In this document: positions 4,500-35,830 of the stretch, in pieces
Numbering within the stretch: position 1 is the stretch's first letter
Layout of the letters: every line of letters starts with the position of its first letter
NCBI GenBank assembly: GCA_025936825.1
Contig: JAICSO010000008.1
Coordinates: 124,001-188,000 of the forward strand
Direction: 5' to 3'
Source of the DNA: Terriglobales bacterium
GTDB taxonomy: Bacteria > Acidobacteriota > Terriglobia > Terriglobales > Acidobacteriaceae
Length of the DNA: 64,000 nt
Notes under the pieces: model-generated
What the model saw: the letters and a program-made list of their open reading frames with translations, nothing else
Told to the model about the DNA's origin: nothing
Databases searched by the model: none
Made by a program: the position numbers and the translations under genes

Positions 4500-4514
4500 G
4501 GTTGAGTTGTGCGA

Positions 4515-4738
4515 TTCGCGCCGGTCTCCTGGCTTGCGAGTAAGGATGTCAGACGTGGAGGACGGGCGCCCTCGCCCGTCCGGCCGAGCGAAGCTCGGCA
4601 GTCTAGAACATTCCACTTTGCCCCGGCCCTTCCCGGATTTCTCCAGTGGCCCGAGGCGATGTCCTCGCTTACAGTTGCGCGGCAGCGCGGGATTTGCACC
4701 CGCTTCCCTGTCCTTGTGCGTGCGACGTACTCCTCGTC
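4515..4738 (-). promoter_or_regulatory. Cobalamin riboswitch
   Basis: Read on the minus strand, the region has the conserved parts of an adenosylcobalamin/cobalamin riboswitch in order: AGGGAAGCGGGTGCAAATCC near 4709, then GCGCAACTGTAAGCGAGGAC, GCCACTGGAGAAATCCGGGA, and the B12 box GCCAGGAGACCGGC at 4520-4533. It sits between a strong promoter (4774-4803) and the TonB receptor. Unusually, the peripheral segment before the B12 box holds two palindromes (4561-4580 and 4583-4599) that belong to the dispersed repeat family of this genome. Confidence 0.93.
4561..4599. repeat. Palindromic repeat pair inserted in the riboswitch
   Basis: GACGGGCGCCCTCGCCCGTC (4561-4580) is followed by GCCGAGCGAAGCTCGGC (4583-4599). 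The first matches repeats at 26340-26360, 27655-27675 and 36795-36822 and the ligA insert; the second matches the GAGC-TTCG-GCTC type hairpins next to the RAYT gene and at 26204-26219. Confidence 0.8.
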
Positions 4739-4773
4739 GCACAAGAACGCGCGAACGCATTGAAAGCACCACG

Positions 4774-13399: not shown

Positions 13400-13863
13400 A
13401 GAAAAGCGTCTGCCTGCGCAGCCATAAAGCTTTTGGCTCTTAGCTGTTAGCCCGTAGGTCTTCGGCGAATTGGCCGCTCTCTTGAGCAGGACCTTTTTCT
13501 GATTTGTTCCTGAAGCCTGACGCCGAGAGCCTGAAGCCTCGATTCCGGGGACCTCCCGACACGTTGCCCTATGTCCCTGCCGTTCAATTAATTAGATGGC
13601 GAGAGCGGGTGTTTAGTTTCAGCTAAGGAGCGGACTTGGGCGGTCTACACAATCGGGGTGCCGTCCGCTGGAAGCGGACTCGGAGAACCTGATGTTGCTC
13701 TCGTACGCTGACGACCCCCGTGTGAGAACTCTTCTTTCGCTCCTCCGGAGCTGGCCCTTTCCCACTGCTACCCGGGGCTCACCCCCCGGGCTTCATTCTT
13801 GCGCCGCTTCGCGGCTGCGGTTCCTTTCACAACGCATTAAGCAACATTGTGGATTCGACTCCT
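13400..13863. repeat. Intergenic region packed with dispersed repeats
   Basis: No gene seen. Contents: a GGCTCTTAGCTGTTAG copy of the AGCTAA family (13433-13451); GTGCCGTCCGCTGGAAGCGG (13659-13678); and CCCCCCGGGCTTCATTCTTG (13785-13804) followed by CGCCGCTTCGCGGC. The last two modules recur in reverse order at 35668-35760. Confidence 0.7.
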
Positions 13864-15716: not shown

Positions 15717-16658
15717 ATGAAGAGGCACCGCATCATTCTTTCTCTGATCACGGTGGACAACGATTTCCAATTGGAGCAGGCGGCGTCCGCCGAAGAGGCG
15801 GCGCGCCACTTGGGAGTGGACGTAGAGGTCCTATTCGCCAATGGGGACAGCATCGAGCAGAGCCAACAGGTGCTTCGATTTGTGCAGGCCAAATCCAGCG
15901 AGCGCCCGGATGGAATTATCTTTGAGCCGGTTGGCGGACCGGCTCTGGCTGTGGCGGCGCGAGCGGCGGTGGATGCCGGAATCGGTTGGGTGGTACTCAA
16001 CAAGCAGGTGGAATACGTAAAAGAGTTGCGGCAACAACTGAAGGTCCCGGTTTTTTCGGTCACAAGTGATCATATGGAAATGGGGCGGATTCAGGGGTAT
16101 CAACTCGCGGCGCTGTTGCCAGAGGGTGGTTCAATTTTGTCGATTGAAGGACCGGCCGAAAGCGATGCATGCAAGCTGCGAGTGGTGGGACTGGCTGAAA
16201 CTAAGCCGGCAAATATTCGAATCAAAACCATGCGGGCAAGTTGGACGGAGTCCAGTGCGTTGAAGACTCTGAACTCATGGCTGCAACTTTCCACCTCGCG
16301 GCATGAACCCATCGTCGCGGTGGCGGCGCAGAATGATGCCATGGCGATGGGCGCGAAGACAGCGTTCGAAGAATTGACCCGGGACTCCGGCGGTGGTCGC
16401 TACTGGCACGAACTGCCCTTCCTGGGCATGGACGGCGTTCCGACAACGGGACAGGCATGGGTGAAAGCGCATTTGATGGCTGCTACCATTGTCGCTCCGC
16501 CGCCGTCTGGAACGGCAGTGGAGGTTCTTGTCGGCGCGCTACGAACGGGAGAAATTGCTCCCGAGACTACCGTGCTGGTCCCATATTCCTTCCCACCTTT
16601 GCCGGCCATCAAACCAATTAACGGGAAGCGGCGAATGGCGACTGTTGGGCATATGTAG
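15717..16658 (+). CDS. Sugar-binding-like protein (periplasmic-binding-protein fold, no signal peptide)
   Basis: A 313-residue protein with the fold of ribose-type ABC binding proteins (Peripla_BP_4): a first lobe with DNDFQLEQAASAEEAARHLG and PDGIIFEPVGGPALAVAARA, a hinge GSILSIEGPAESDACKLRVVG, and a second lobe with AVAAQNDAMAMGAKTAFEEL and PFLGMDGVP. It has no signal peptide or lipobox, and no DNA-binding domain like LacI, so it is expected in the cytoplasm. ATG 15717 has GAGG seven bases upstream. No transporter genes are near. It may be a cytoplasmic ligand sensor; this is inference. Confidence 0.8.
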   Translation: MKRHRIILSLITVDNDFQLEQAASAEEAARHLGVDVEVLFANGDSIEQSQQVLRFVQAKSSERPDGIIFEPVGGPALAVAARAAVDAGIGWVVLNKQVEYVKELRQQLKVPVFSVTSDHMEMGRIQGYQLAALLPEGGSILSIEGPAESDACKLRVVGLAETKPANIRIKTMRASWTESSALKTLNSWLQLSTSRHEPIVAVAAQNDAMAMGAKTAFEELTRDSGGGRYWHELPFLGMDGVPTTGQAWVKAHLMAATIVAPPPSGTAVEVLVGALRTGEIAPETTVLVPYSFPPLPAIKPINGKRRMATVGHM

Positions 16659-16700
16659 GGACAGCCGCCTCGGCTGTCCGGGCGAGCAGAGCTCGCCAGA
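16656..16700. repeat. REP-like palindrome pair, inverted orientation
   Basis: GGACAGCCGCCTCGGCTGTC is followed by GGGCGAGCAGAGCTCGCC. It is the same two-hairpin unit as 16781-16830 but on the other strand. Confidence 0.75.
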
Positions 16701-16780: not shown

Positions 16781-16830
16781 GCGGAGCTTCGCTCCGCCCG
16801 ACAGCCGGGGGCGGCTGTCGCTACACGGAC
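16781..16830. repeat. REP-like unit, left copy
   Basis: A 17-bp hairpin GCGGAGCTTCGCTCCGC is followed by CGACAGCCGGGGGCGGCTGT and CGCTACACGGAC. It ends four bases before the transposase start. Confidence 0.85.
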
Positions 16831-16834
16831 ATTT

Positions 16835-17314
16835 ATGAGGGTAACGCGGCGCGGATTTTACCGACGACGGCTGCCGCATCTGCAGCGCGACTACAAGCCA
16901 CACTTCGTTACATTTTGTACTTACCAGCGATGGATTCTGCCGGAACTCGCACGAGACATCGTGCTGGAGTGCTGTCTGCACGACCACCAAGTCACGATGA
17001 CTCTGCATGCTTGTGTCGTGATGCCGGATCACGTGCATTTGATTTTCACCCCGAGAGTGGATGAGGAGCGAGGAGAGATTTTCTCATTGGCCAGAATAAT
17101 GGACGCAATTAAAGGAGCTTCCGCGCACAAGATGAATAAGGCTTTGGGAAGAGAAGGCCGTGTCTGGCAAAGCGAGTCGTTCGACCGTGTGGTGCGATCG
17201 TCGGAGAGTCTCGATGCAAAGGTAGCTTATGTTCTGGCAAATCCCGTTCGTGCTGGTCTGGCTGGCGTGAGCGGGGAGTACCGTTGGTTATGGCGAAGGG
17301 GAGGTTTGGAGTAA
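16835..17314 (+). CDS. REP-associated tyrosine transposase (RAYT, Y1 HUH family)
   Basis: RAYTs are single-domain Y1 transposases related to IS200/IS605 that cut and move REP/REPIN hairpins. The 159-residue protein has the HUH metal motif in MPDHVHLIF (His66, His68), WQSESFDRVV, and the catalytic tyrosine in AKVAYVLANPVRAGL (Tyr132). An upstream FVTFCTYQR strand is also typical. It has normal length and no frameshift, so it may be active. It is flanked on both sides by near-identical palindromes, and the same hairpins are scattered through the window, including within genes. Confidence 0.93.
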   Translation: MRVTRRGFYRRRLPHLQRDYKPHFVTFCTYQRWILPELARDIVLECCLHDHQVTMTLHACVVMPDHVHLIFTPRVDEERGEIFSLARIMDAIKGASAHKMNKALGREGRVWQSESFDRVVRSSESLDAKVAYVLANPVRAGLAGVSGEYRWLWRRGGLE

Positions 17315-17323
17315 CAGAGAACT

Positions 17324-17450
17324 GCGGAGCTTCGCTCCGCCCGACAGCCGAGGGCGGCTGTCGCTACACGGACAATTCCTGACAGCCAAGCGCGGCTGTT
17401 GCTACATGAACAATCCTGACAGCCGAGGGCGGCGTCTCTACATGTCGTAG
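17324..17450. repeat. REP-like cluster, right copies
   Basis: One complete unit (17324-17373) differs from the left unit by one base; two shorter GACAGCC...GGCTGT(T) copies follow near 17380-17410 and 17420-17445. Confidence 0.85.
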
Positions 17451-26109: not shown

Positions 26110-26365
26110 TTGTTGACCTTTTCGGCACGACTGAAGTCGCGCCCTCCCGAGCCTTTCGGCACGACTAAACTCGTGCTTTCCCGGAAACAGCGCGCTTTTC
26201 TGCCGAGTTTCGCTCGGCCTGGACAGCCGAGGGCGGCTGTCCCTACGCGTGCTCGGCAGACACTCGAGCGCGGCTGTCCCTACGCGTGCTGCGCCGGATC
26301 CGTTCGACGCCCTCGCTTCGCTCAGTCGCTCAGGGCAGGCTAGGCGAGGGCGCCCGTCCCTCCAT
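26110..26365. repeat. Cluster of REP-like palindromes between hsp20 and clpB
   Basis: In order: TTCGGCACGACTGAAGTCG near 26121, a related TTCGGCACGACTAAACTCG near 26155, GCCGAGTTTCGCTCGGC (26203-26219), GGACAGCCGAGGGCGGCTGT (26221-26240), a second GCGGCTGTCCCTACGCGTGC (26270-26289), and GCGAGGGCGCCCGTCCCTCC (26343-26362). The same four modules occur inside dus and the methyltransferase. Confidence 0.85.
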
Positions 26366-26997: not shown

Positions 26998-28467
26998 TCA
27001 GCTTACGAATGAGATTAGGCATTTAAGGTAAGCCGTCTCGGGGACTCCCAGTACGTTCGGATGGTCCTTGGCTTGGCCACGGTTTTCCAGGATTCGGAGG
27101 TTCCTGTGGGAATCGAGGGCTGCAGATGCAAGGACTTCCAGCAGGTCGGAGGCGCTCACGTGGTAAGAGCAGGAGCAAGTCACGAGGATGCCGCCGGGCC
27201 GGAGCATCTTGAGCGCGCGAAGGTTCAGCTCCTTGTAGCCCCGGATTGCAGTATCGCGGTTCTGGCGGGACTTCGCGAACGCCGGGGGATCGAGAACGAT
27301 GGTGTCGTACTTCCGCCCTGCGTCAGAATAGTCGCGGAGAAGGTCAAAGGCGTTGGCCTCGATCCAATCGATCTCGCGGCCGTTGAGGGCGGCGTTCTGG
27401 TCGGCGGCTTCAAGCGCGGGGCGGGAACTGTCCACGCCCGTGACCTTGTCGCAAGAGCGGGCAAGATGGAGGGCGAAGCCACCCTGGTAAGTGAAAACGT
27501 CGAGTGCTTCACCTCGGGCGTACTTCTCCGCCGCGGCGTAGTTTTCGCGCTGATCGAGGAAGGCCCCGGTTTTCTGGCCGCCGAGGGCGTCGTAGAGGAA
27601 GCGCACGGAGTTCATTTGGAATTCGGTCGTAATCGCGGACGTCGAGCCTTCGACGGGCGAGGCGCCCGTCGCTCCTCTTTCACCTGATGTCATTCCGAGG
27701 AGTGGAGCGGAGCGGAACGACGAGGAACCTGCTTCTCGTCCGGGAACACCGGGTTCCTCACCGCTGAAGCGGTTCGGAATGACATCGTGGTTAGAGTATT
27801 TGAAACTATCTTCGTGGTTAGAGTATTTGGGACTATTCCCTTGCCACACGATCCCACTCTCGCGTTCCGGCAACTGCTCCAGCTTTCGCACCCGCGGATC
27901 GATGCGCTCGACGATCACCCGTGGGTTCAGTGCGACCCGCAGTTCAGAAAGAAATATGTTCCGCATGGGATCGGGATCCCAGGCTTGAGTGAGCACCTGA
28001 AGAGAAAGAATGTCGTTGTATTTATCGACGATGAGGCCGGGCAGAAAATCGCCTTCGCTGAAGATCACGCGATACGCATTAGTGTCCTGCACGAAGCGCT
28101 CGCGATAGACGATAGCGGCACGAATGCGCTCACGAATGAGCTGCTCGATGTCATTCACCGGCTTCGGCGAGATCATGCGGACAGCGATCTCAGAAGCGGT
28201 GCTGTAGAAAGCGGAGCCGAGGGTTCGAGTCACTGGAGGCCGTGTGGGTCGGACATTCTTGTCCGACAAGGTCGGTATGGCGCGGGCACTTTTGCCCGCG
28301 TGGCGTTTCGTTCCAGTGTCCCCGGCCTCTTGCACCAGCACCACGGCCCCGGGTTGCACACCTTCTGCCTCGACCACATCCGAGCGGTACACCCACACGT
28401 GTCCTGCACGTATGCGGTCGGCCCCGCGGCGGGAGACGGCTATAACAGGAGTTCTATCTGTCGTCAT
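26998..28467 (-). CDS. Class I rRNA large-subunit methyltransferase (RlmI-like) with two repeat insertions
   Basis: The protein has an N-terminal PUA domain (GADRIRAGHVWVYRSDVV) and a Rossmann methyltransferase domain (GQKTGAFLDQRENY, ALDVFTYQGGFALHLA, TIVLDPPAFAKS, LVTCSCSYHVS), as in RlmI, which makes m5C1962 in E. coli 23S rRNA. It has 489 residues instead of about 396. Two segments do not fit the family: residues 52-80 and 211-281. Both are encoded by palindromes and repeats of the dispersed families, in frame, between conserved strands, so the enzyme may still work. Its stop lies just beyond the hsp20 promoter. Confidence 0.92.
   Translation of the reverse strand: MTTDRTPVIAVSRRGADRIRAGHVWVYRSDVVEAEGVQPGAVVLVQEAGDTGTKRHAGKSARAIPTLSDKNVRPTRPPVTRTLGSAFYSTASEIAVRMISPKPVNDIEQLIRERIRAAIVYRERFVQDTNAYRVIFSEGDFLPGLIVDKYNDILSLQVLTQAWDPDPMRNIFLSELRVALNPRVIVERIDPRVRKLEQLPERESGIVWQGNSPKYSNHEDSFKYSNHDVIPNRFSGEEPGVPGREAGSSSFRSAPLLGMTSGERGATGASPVEGSTSAITTEFQMNSVRFLYDALGGQKTGAFLDQRENYAAAEKYARGEALDVFTYQGGFALHLARSCDKVTGVDSSRPALEAADQNAALNGREIDWIEANAFDLLRDYSDAGRKYDTIVLDPPAFAKSRQNRDTAIRGYKELNLRALKMLRPGGILVTCSCSYHVSASDLLEVLASAALDSHRNLRILENRGQAKDHPNVLGVPETAYLKCLISFVS
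27653..27840. repeat. In-frame repeat block inside the methyltransferase gene (second insert)
   Basis: Three parts: GACGGGCGAGGCGCCCGTC (27657-27675), a family A palindrome with GATGTCATTC/GAATGACATC ends (27686-27786), and two tandem 27-bp units (27786-27812 and 27813-27839, about 22 of 27 bases equal) that give the repeated residues KYSNH. Together they encode residues 211-281. Confidence 0.85.
28238..28305. repeat. In-frame composite palindrome inside the methyltransferase gene (first insert)
   Basis: GTCGGACATTCTTGTCCGAC is followed by GCGCGGGCACTTTTGCCCGC. Encodes most of residues 52-80. The first hairpin matches 11508-11530 and 56753-56782. Confidence 0.85.
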
Positions 28468-31701: not shown

Positions 31702-31795
31702 CCGCAAAAGGACGCACAGGTCGCTAAGAAAACGAGATTGGAAGCTAAAAGGCTAAAACGTTCGGCCTGTGCGAGTTGGTGTTTTCTGCGGTTAA
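31698..31795. repeat. Mixed GCAAAG- and AGCTAA-type repeats
   Basis: AACCGCAAAAGGACGCACAG (31701 on), GGAAGCTAAAAGGCTAAAAC (31740 on) and TTTTCTGCGGTTAAA (31782-31796), the last facing the first. The right arm reaches the dus stop codon. Confidence 0.6.
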
Positions 31796-33213
31796 ATGGC
31801 TGCGACTGGCGCCACCAGCCGTTGTTCGAAAAAATTTTCCACTCGCGAGAGGATTTCGGGTGCTGCCTTGGACTCGTAAATTTCTTTGCGCAGGGCGGCG
31901 CCGCCGGGAACGCCGTGCGTGAACCATGAGGCGAACTGCTTCATTTTGCCGGTCGCGTCGGGCAGTTCTTCTTCGATCAGCATTTGAAAGTAAGTACGGA
32001 TCATTTGGTAGCGGTCGGCTTCGGAGGGGTGCTCGTAAAGCGCTCCGCGAGCGGCTTCGCCCGCGCAATCCGCCCCGAACTCAGGTCTTCGGGAGGGCAC
32101 GACTTCAGTGGTGCCGCTAGAACTCCCAAGTGGGACCGGGGCTTTAGCCCCAGAAGCCACCGCGGCTAAAGCCGCGTCACTAAATTCATCGTTTCCGGCA
32201 CGGCTGAAGCCGTGCCCTCCCGTCGGAACATCCGGAAAGGTGGCAGCGCCCATTCGACTCCCTCCGGGTCGGTCGCTCAGGACAACCTCGGGCCTTCGGC
32301 CCGATGGACAGCCGAGGGCGGCTGTCCCTACGCGAATCTTTTCGCAATACTGTTCAATTTGGCGGAAGATCCAGGGATTCGCTGGCGCGGTGCGACCAAT
32401 CATGACGGCGTCACACCCGGTTGCGGCCACCATGGCGCAGGCGTCTTCTGGAGTGCGGATGTCGCCGTTACCAATGACGGGAATCTTTACCGCGTCTTTC
32501 ACCGCCGCGATCCATTCCCAGCGCGCGTTTCCGCTGTAACCCTGCTCGCGGGTGCGGGCGTGCAGAGCGACCGCGCACAAACCGCAGTCCTCCGCCATCT
32601 TCGCCAGTTCGACGCAGACGATCTCTTCGTCGTTCCAGCCTGCGCGGAACTTCACCGTGAAGGGAGTCTTCACGGCAGTACGCACGGCCTTGAAGATTTC
32701 GCCGATACGCGGCAGATCGCGCAGCAGTCCTGAGCCGCCGTTACACTTCACGACTTTTTTCGCCGGACATCCGAGATTCAAGTCCACCAGATCAAAACCA
32801 AGGTCCTCGACGATTCGCGCGGCGTCCGCCATAACCTTGGGATCACTGCCGAACAGCTGCGCGGAGATCGGGTGCTCGTCTTCATAAAAATGAAGGTAGC
32901 GTTTGGCCTTCCTATCTTTGGCGCGGAGCACACCGTCGGCCGAGGTGAACTCGGTCATGATCAGGCCGCAGCCACCAAGATTGCGAATGAAGCGGCGGAA
33001 GACGGTGTCGGTGACACCGGCCATGGGCGCGAGAACGGTGGCGGGGGAGATAGTGACTGAACCGATCTGAAGCGAACCGGGAACCGGGACTTGCGCTGCT
33101 CGCGCCGGTGGGACTGCGGGTTGCGACAGGGCCTCGAAGCCAGCATTTACAGCATTGTCACAGCAATTGCTGGGTGCCGCAGGCTTCGGCGCATTGTCCC
33201 AAAACTTCTTCAC
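31792..33213 (-). CDS. tRNA-dihydrouridine synthase with a ~100-residue repeat insertion
   Basis: Dus enzymes reduce uridines to dihydrouridine in tRNA with FMN and NADPH. The TIM barrel shows VLAPMAGVTDTVFRRFI, DLNLGCPAKKVVKCNGGSGL with the catalytic Cys, FTVKFRAGWN, ALHARTREQGYSG and GNGDIRTPEDA. It is most like the DusB group. At 473 residues it is about 100 too long: residues 293-392, between WIFRQIEQYCEK and EHPSEADRYQMI, do not resemble Dus and are encoded by at least four REP-like palindromes in frame. The GTG start gives an N-terminal extension of about 45 residues before the barrel. Confidence 0.93.
   Translation of the reverse strand: MKKFWDNAPKPAAPSNCCDNAVNAGFEALSQPAVPPARAAQVPVPGSLQIGSVTISPATVLAPMAGVTDTVFRRFIRNLGGCGLIMTEFTSADGVLRAKDRKAKRYLHFYEDEHPISAQLFGSDPKVMADAARIVEDLGFDLVDLNLGCPAKKVVKCNGGSGLLRDLPRIGEIFKAVRTAVKTPFTVKFRAGWNDEEIVCVELAKMAEDCGLCAVALHARTREQGYSGNARWEWIAAVKDAVKIPVIGNGDIRTPEDACAMVAATGCDAVMIGRTAPANPWIFRQIEQYCEKIRVGTAALGCPSGRRPEVVLSDRPGGSRMGAATFPDVPTGGHGFSRAGNDEFSDAALAAVASGAKAPVPLGSSSGTTEVVPSRRPEFGADCAGEAARGALYEHPSEADRYQMIRTYFQMLIEEELPDATGKMKQFASWFTHGVPGGAALRKEIYESKAAPEILSRVENFFEQRLVAPVAAI
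32085..32335. repeat. Block of REP-like palindromes inside dus
   Basis: Includes GGGGCTTTAGCCCC (32139-32152), GCGGCTAAAGCCGC (32162-32175), GGCACGGCTGAAGCCGTGCC (32198-32217), GGGCCTTCGGCCC (32290-32302) and GGACAGCCGAGGGCGGCTGT (32306-32325) followed by CCCTACGCG. The third and last match the 26110-26365 cluster. Confidence 0.88.
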
Positions 33214-35619: not shown

Positions 35620-35830
35620 GCCGGCCGATCTGTCGCCCCTTCGGGGCTGATCGTGTTTTTCCTTTCCCAGGGCTTACGCCCCGGGCTTTATTCTTGTGCC
35701 GCTTCGCGGCTCCTCGCTGGATGGGACTTTGTGCCGTCCGCTGAAACGGACTCGGTTCGTCCTGTTCGACTTCTCCCACACTTACGTGTGGGGCTATTTA
35801 TGTTCCACAGCTGCGCGGCTGGCTTAACCT
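35620..35830. repeat. Composite palindromic repeats after the fucosidase gene
   Basis: In order: CGCCCCTTCGGGGC (35634-35647), GGGCTTACGCCCCGGGCTTT (35671-35690) with ATTCTTGTGCCGCTTCGCGGC, GTGCCGTCCGCTGAAACGG (35730-35748), and CCCACACTTACGTGTGGGG near 35775. The middle modules recur at 13659-13820. No gene in this 260-bp gap. Confidence 0.8.

Follow-up and report, generated by a model that had tools for sequence, protein, structure and literature searches.

The 64,000-nucleotide stretch of Terriglobales DNA analyzed in this work (hereafter the window) contains on its minus strand a gene for an RlmI-like 23S rRNA methyltransferase (26998-28467) with two inserts, and the question raised by this locus is where these extra protein segments came from and whether the enzyme that bears them still functions. 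The assignment of the gene is based upon Pfam, NCBIfam, and fold matches. Its 489 aa open reading frame matched both the Methyltrans_SAM (PF10672) and PUA_3 (PF17785) models, as well as the NCBIfam model for the 23S rRNA C1962 methyltransferase, for which the score (365 bits) lies below the equivalog cut-off of 575 bits. The RlmI motifs LDPPAFAKS and TCSCSYH are both retained in the alignment, and the predicted fold resembles the structures 1wxw, 2as0, and 3c0k (TM-scores, normalized by target length, of 0.86-0.92). With its PUA domain, Rossmann methyltransferase fold, and conserved motifs, this protein has the features of an RlmI-type enzyme, for which methylation at m5C1962 is predicted.

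Sequence alignments were made for 20 orthologs from the family and, separately, for 75 RlmI proteins consisting of the window copy and 74 proteins from public genomes, in which loop lengths were measured from anchor to anchor. The congeners compared included Acidobacteriaceae bacterium RYN_4 (G004) and the gp1 Acidobacteria AA144 (G001), AA145 (G002), AA150 (G003), and AA146 (G007); their genus is placed close to Candidatus Sulfotelmatobacter (Terriglobales). In both alignments exactly two long variable segments were observed, at residues ~52-81 (site 1) and ~211-281 (site 2), which bears out an earlier note on this DNA that had singled out residues 52-80 and 211-281 as misfits to the family. 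At site 1 the most common length is 13 residues, found in 68 of the 75 proteins (among them the G002 protein, which is cut short by stops), vs. 43 residues in the window copy; for site 2 the mode is 16 residues and the window protein has 83. The longer form of site 1 was seen in only seven proteins, viz. that of the window genome and those from six loci, all of the same genus. The occurrence of the same segments in many unrelated genera, which the earlier note would have taken as evidence against insertion, was looked for in the 75-protein alignment, and the segments proved to be confined to this one genus. In an AlphaFold2 model the core of the protein has pLDDT values above 90, residues 54-64 and 214-275 score below 50, and the inserts are placed between the strands 42-47/82-88 and 205-209/280-285. 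Both inserts are thus predicted to be disordered loops on an intact core, and their low pLDDT is in part to be expected, as most of the aligned sequences do not contain them.

The site 1 insert (28225-28314, minus strand; about 30 additional codons with low pLDDT) is flanked on either side by a strand of the PUA-like domain. The earlier note had described a single palindrome here, whereas the sequence contains two hairpins of the REP type. The first of these (REP a; 28275-28300, minus strand, hairpin 28281-28300) consists of CGCGGGCA-AAAG-TGCCCGCG with the tail CCATAC, and the second (REP b; 28242-28267, minus strand, hairpin 28248-28267), which encodes the peptide SDKNVRPTR, consists of GTCGGACA-AGAA-TGTCCGAC with the tail CCACAC. 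The two are 33 bp apart and in direct orientation. Elements listed from 1.0 Mb of this genome share a common anatomy (a stem of 8-9 bp in one of several classes, a purine tetraloop, and a CYAC tail), and the commonest tetranucleotides beside the hairpins scanned in that 1.0 Mb are CTAC and CCAC, which correspond to GTAG and GTGG on the other strand. REP b has the CCAC tag and that of REP a (CCAT) is a single change away; a subset of REPs with a CTCC tail departs from the CYAC rule. The GTAG superfamily of REPs is characterized by hairpins of 20-40 bp with stems of 5-13 bp and loops of 2-20 nt, and the REPs of the window genome, with stems of 8-9 bp and 4-nt loops, follow this size rule. In their hairpin size, tag, dispersed copies, and the existence of a RAYT flanked by matching REPs, the site 1 elements fit the GTAG/GTRG REP superfamily.

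The dispersed nature of these elements was established by several means. A covariance model of dispersed hairpins gives a score of 41.6 bits at 28239-28273 (minus strand), but as this copy is itself part of the training set, independent support comes from 39 further places in the window genome that match this stretch (E ≤ 0.001) and from Markov controls that were nearly empty: under a strict definition 54 REPs were found in 2.0 Mb from two genomes, vs. one in 25 controls combined. Stem covariation in one alignment (A1) was set aside as evidence, because its sequences had been chosen as hairpins and the argument would be circular. A covariance model for REPs built from 24 copies matched at least 127 sites in the window genome (one of them between clpB and an hsp20-like gene at 26216-26251, plus strand) and at least 48-141 in each of five congeners, with none detectable up to an E-value of 0.1 in the two other congeners, G005 and G006. 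With stricter filters, the listed matches numbered 0-84 in other genera within the family, and beyond it there were few or no matches. Among the consensus REPs, three of the GTGG type have no stop in any of the six frames, a property shared by 26% of random 28-mers. The idea that GTGG-tagged elements are favored inside genes for want of a TAG was rejected, since by a hand count 9 of the 17 REPs with a CCAC tail and 8 of the 17 with a CTAC tail are internal to genes, and the GTGG type is therefore not enriched there.

Comparison at the DNA level provides further insight into the history of site 1. The site is empty in other genera; G001 carries a single REP there, G004, G007, and the window genome carry two each, and G003 has two decayed REPs; the empty, one-REP, and two-REP states share one codon position among the relatives. 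The stems at this site vary in sequence from species to species, yet they mostly stay paired, which is consistent with repeated insertion or with conversion between copies. In G005 and G006 the site is longer by 9 and 17 residues, respectively, without a recognizable REP, and the loop is therefore tolerant of length changes in any case. In the rlmI gene of G002 (L010, about 2700-2790), an in-frame TGA and a TAG lie next to the site 1 REP, with conservation retained over the remainder of the protein, and this reflects either a natural disruption, showing that insertion is not always frame-safe, or an error in the metagenome-assembled genome.

The site 2 insert (27625-27837, minus strand; a net gain of ~67 codons relative to G004, with pLDDT below 50) is of a composite nature. 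It contains a MITE-like element of 97 bp (27688-27784) bounded by inverted repeats of 11 bp (TGTCATTCCGA / TCGGAATGACA), two 25-bp direct repeats with a spacing of 27 (27785-27836), and a weak REP-like hairpin GACGGGCGCC-TCGCCCGTC (27651-27672, plus strand; covariance model, E = 0.08). Nine terminal-repeat pairs of the MITE-like family were found in 1.0 Mb of the window genome, and the copy at 27688-27784 is the sole one of these that is wholly inside a gene. The main part of site 2 is thus a second family, unrelated to the REPs of site 1. The central proposal of the earlier note, palindromic in-frame insertions in loops of a conserved RlmI, is upheld by the alignments, the hairpin copies, and the AlphaFold2 model. 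The palindromes that it placed at both sites are real and dispersed, but they belong mainly to two unrelated families, and the one at site 2 is accompanied by the direct repeat and the weak hairpin.

The RlmI gene is only one of many that carry such elements. The counts of REPs within genes cover 1.4 Mb of the 6.5-Mb window genome and 0.58 Mb of G004, and they are based upon a home-made gene caller. In the first 1.0 Mb of the window genome 26 of 51 REPs fall in predicted genes (22 away from the N-terminus), and in a further 400 kb 11 of 15 do so (7 internal), giving 37 of 66 in total with 29 internal. In comparison with a coding density of 87%, REPs are depleted from genes, yet far from excluded. 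The host genes encode ValS and the B12-dependent ribonucleotide reductase (three REPs each), MnmE (two), MurC, PcrA, YchF, MoeA, HypF, SelA, dGTPase, DusB, CarB, DnaE, NuoL, and PDH E2. Within the window, a REP (32301-32336, plus strand) is located inside dusB (31792-33213, minus strand) after residue ~292; its stem core GACAGCCG/CGGCTGTC and CTAC tail are the same as in the REPs of the window RAYT described below. In G004, 17 of 50 REPs are internal to genes, the hosts including ValS, GyrB, PurL, and Der, and the insertions in DusB, MoeA, ValS, and RlmI occupy positions common to this species and the window genome. When eight host proteins (ValS, MurC, MnmE, YchF, MoeA, PcrA, DusB, and RlmI) were compared with solved structures, the REP-encoded residues were in all eight cases within or at the edge of an insertion, and in MoeA a 13-residue insert consists wholly of REP peptide.

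These proteins very probably still work. A second ValS gene was sought in the window genome and not found, and as ValS is single-copy, the REP-bearing enzyme must be functional. The dN/dS ratios, which are rough because synonymous sites are nearly saturated (pS about 0.7), are 0.05-0.11 for the RlmI core and 0.05-0.08 for that of ValS, vs. 0.5-0.7 for RlmI insert 1 in three comparisons and 0.07 for this insert in the comparison with G001, which involves 12 codons. The core values point to clear constraint on both proteins, and for RlmI retained function is suggested by its low core dN/dS and by the same kind of insertion in single-copy essential genes. The simplest reading of the inserts is that they are tolerated loops, and their retention would be neutral.

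A candidate for the enzyme that moves the REPs is encoded in the window. A RAYT gene (Y1/HUH transposase, 16835-17314, plus strand), recognized by its match to PF01797 and its HVH motif, is preceded at ~15 bp from its start by a REP CGACAGCCG-GGGG-CGGCTGTCG-CTACACGG (16794-16829, plus strand) and followed ~30 bp downstream by a REP of the same class (17337-17372, plus strand); an extra REP of this class lies upstream in inverse orientation (16650-16684, minus strand). All three were identified by the covariance model. RAYTs situated between class-matched REPs were observed at L106 of the window genome, L144 of G002, and L142 and L138 of G001. The class of REP a (CGCGGGCA..CCACACGG) flanks the RAYT at L142 and that of REP b (GTCGGACA..CCACACGG) the one at L144; since a RAYT with the GTCGGACA class was found in this congener only and not in the window genome, we infer the mover of the REP b copy. 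Within the genus, a PF01797 match and REPs occur together in six of eight genomes, whereas in the other two, G005 and G006, neither REPs nor a Y1 transposase were detected and RlmI and ValS lack the REP peptide. This pattern supports, without proving, a link between RAYTs and REPs, as it was seen in a single genus with eight genomes, and the completeness of one negative genome is only 78%. It is consistent with the RAYT as the likely mover of the REPs. At L104 of the window genome (C108:30070 region; also C140 446614-448890) a Y1 transposase gene lies between inverted CCCATGTCTCG hairpins in a TIRYT-like arrangement, and further copies are present elsewhere. In G004 (C7 158490-160316; L057, L058) long CCCACTCAAGCC..GGCTTGAGTGGG hairpins, another REP- or TIR-like family, cluster around a Y1 transposase match.

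We consider it highly likely that the RlmI inserts arose when small mobile elements were copied into a conserved gene without disturbing its reading frame, and that they were then tolerated. Y1/HUH transposases (RAYT, TnpA-REP) probably copy the REPs by recognizing the tag and the hairpin in single-stranded form. An insertion that shifts the frame, introduces a stop, or strikes the core would be purged by selection, while one with a length of 3n in a surface loop would survive and now encode a disordered peptide. Site 2 would have grown in separate events, one of them involving a MITE-like element of another family.

A more far-reaching proposal, which spans essential enzymes and even a riboswitch loop in this acidobacterial genus, is that REPs continually supply proteins with new segments, with frequent RAYT-driven in-frame insertion, orthologous loops refilled, swapped, or expanded by different classes, and some of the segments functional; we regard this as rather unlikely. 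It also appears quite improbable that the inserts have been co-opted, i.e., that the loops are useful (e.g., in RNA binding, or as mRNA hairpins that delay translation or shield the transcript) and are kept by selection. Such a role would account for the pairing retained in the site 1 stems, for the apparent constraint on the insert relative to G001, and for the persistence of the four shared insertions in G004, but the higher insert dN/dS in the remaining comparisons, the free variation of insert lengths and sequences among the congeners, two of which do without them, and the predicted disorder all speak against it. Very improbable, in our assessment, is the origin of the RlmI segments as ordinary lineage-specific loops grown by slippage and point mutation, with hairpins that are coincidental GC-rich sequence. 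Both sites do vary in length in G005 and G006 without recognizable REPs, and site 2 has a tandem direct repeat; however, the site 1 hairpins match copies dispersed throughout the genome, of which controls yield almost none, and the same elements occur in intergenic DNA as well as in a large number of unrelated genes.

We give very little credence to the possibility that rlmI, as a non-essential modification gene, is turning into a pseudogene and for this reason gathers mobile elements. E. coli can dispense with RlmI, the G002 gene has two stops, and of the copies of the 97-bp MITE-like element only the one in the window rlmI is entirely within a gene; but the frame is intact in six of seven congeners, the core is constrained, the catalytic motifs are kept, and valS, dnaE, murC, and other single-copy genes of essential function carry insertions of the same kind. 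Lastly, an assembly artefact is unlikely, as genomes assembled independently of one another carry related inserts at matching positions.

The tolerated insertion of mobile elements proposed here for RlmI is a phenomenon of a known kind, for which the lineage is new and the extent unusual. According to Di Nocera et al. (2013; PMC3733652), GTAG/CGTC REPs are small hairpins with stems of 6-9 bp and a GTAG-type tag (in some families GTRG/GTGG), their RAYT genes are flanked by REPs, and intragenic in-frame copies, single or grouped, occur in known genes including those for UvrD/Rep helicase and tRNA synthetases. That work records intragenic REPs in Opitutus terrae, where most GTAG-20 elements bear GTGG tags, in Rickettsia conorii, Thauera, and others, and it equates the Rickettsia elements RPE-4 and RPE-6 with CGTC REPs; Acidobacteria figure in its main text for TIRYT transposases, not for intragenic REPs. 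Compared with what is described there, about half of the REPs here are in genes, including those for single-copy essential enzymes, and the presence of inserts can be compared with that of RAYTs among congeners; in relation to O. terrae, the richest GTAG case in that source, we do not claim the extent observed here as a record. A literature search largely outside the subscription journals found no earlier report of intragenic REPs in Acidobacteria.

Rickettsia palindromic elements (RPEs; Ogata et al., 2000, 2002) are, as reviewed in PMC10969869, ~150 bp of palindromic mobile DNA, of which in-frame copies are known from numerous unrelated housekeeping proteins. The likeness to them put forward in the earlier note is apt for how insertion works, as numerous protein genes unrelated to one another carry in-frame insertions here as well, but the anatomy of site 1 is better described by GTRG-tagged REPs with RAYTs. 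In contrast to RPEs (~100-150 bp), the REP units in this genome are ~30 bp and only the site 2 element reaches 97 bp; moreover, the RPE host is an intracellular alphaproteobacterium, whereas the present hosts are free-living soil Acidobacteria with a candidate transposase. The REPINs/BIMEs that accompany RAYTs (TnpA-REP) in Pseudomonas, Stenotrophomonas, and E. coli are mostly intergenic (PMC3116915, PMC8266576). With these systems the elements described here share the hairpin with its tag and the RAYT gene between REPs, but the two REPs of RlmI are in direct rather than inverse orientation. RAYTs cut single-stranded REPs, and in one system a change of the tag from GTAG to GTGG caused cutting in vitro at CC instead of CT (PMC8266576).

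In-frame palindromic insertions, best known from Rickettsia, are thus found here in large-genome, free-living soil bacteria and in single-copy essential enzymes. As a candidate transposase adjoins matching elements, and congeners apparently without both provide natural controls, the old question of how selfish DNA is turned into protein sequence is directly testable in this genus. For annotation, the occurrence of SDKNVRPTR or HVGTGALARPAE in acidobacterial proteins is to be understood as transposon-like sequence and not as an enzyme signature.

Two observations concern structured RNAs in the window. A cobalamin riboswitch (4502-4768, minus strand), located 5' of a gene for a BtuB-like TonB receptor, contains an insert of ~71 nt with a REP hairpin (4552-4586), which falls between model positions 151 and 152, a peripheral loop of the structured RNA. 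In addition, two matches to the Acido-Lenti-1 RNA (RF01687) are present at 13771-13816 and 35666-35711 on the plus strand.
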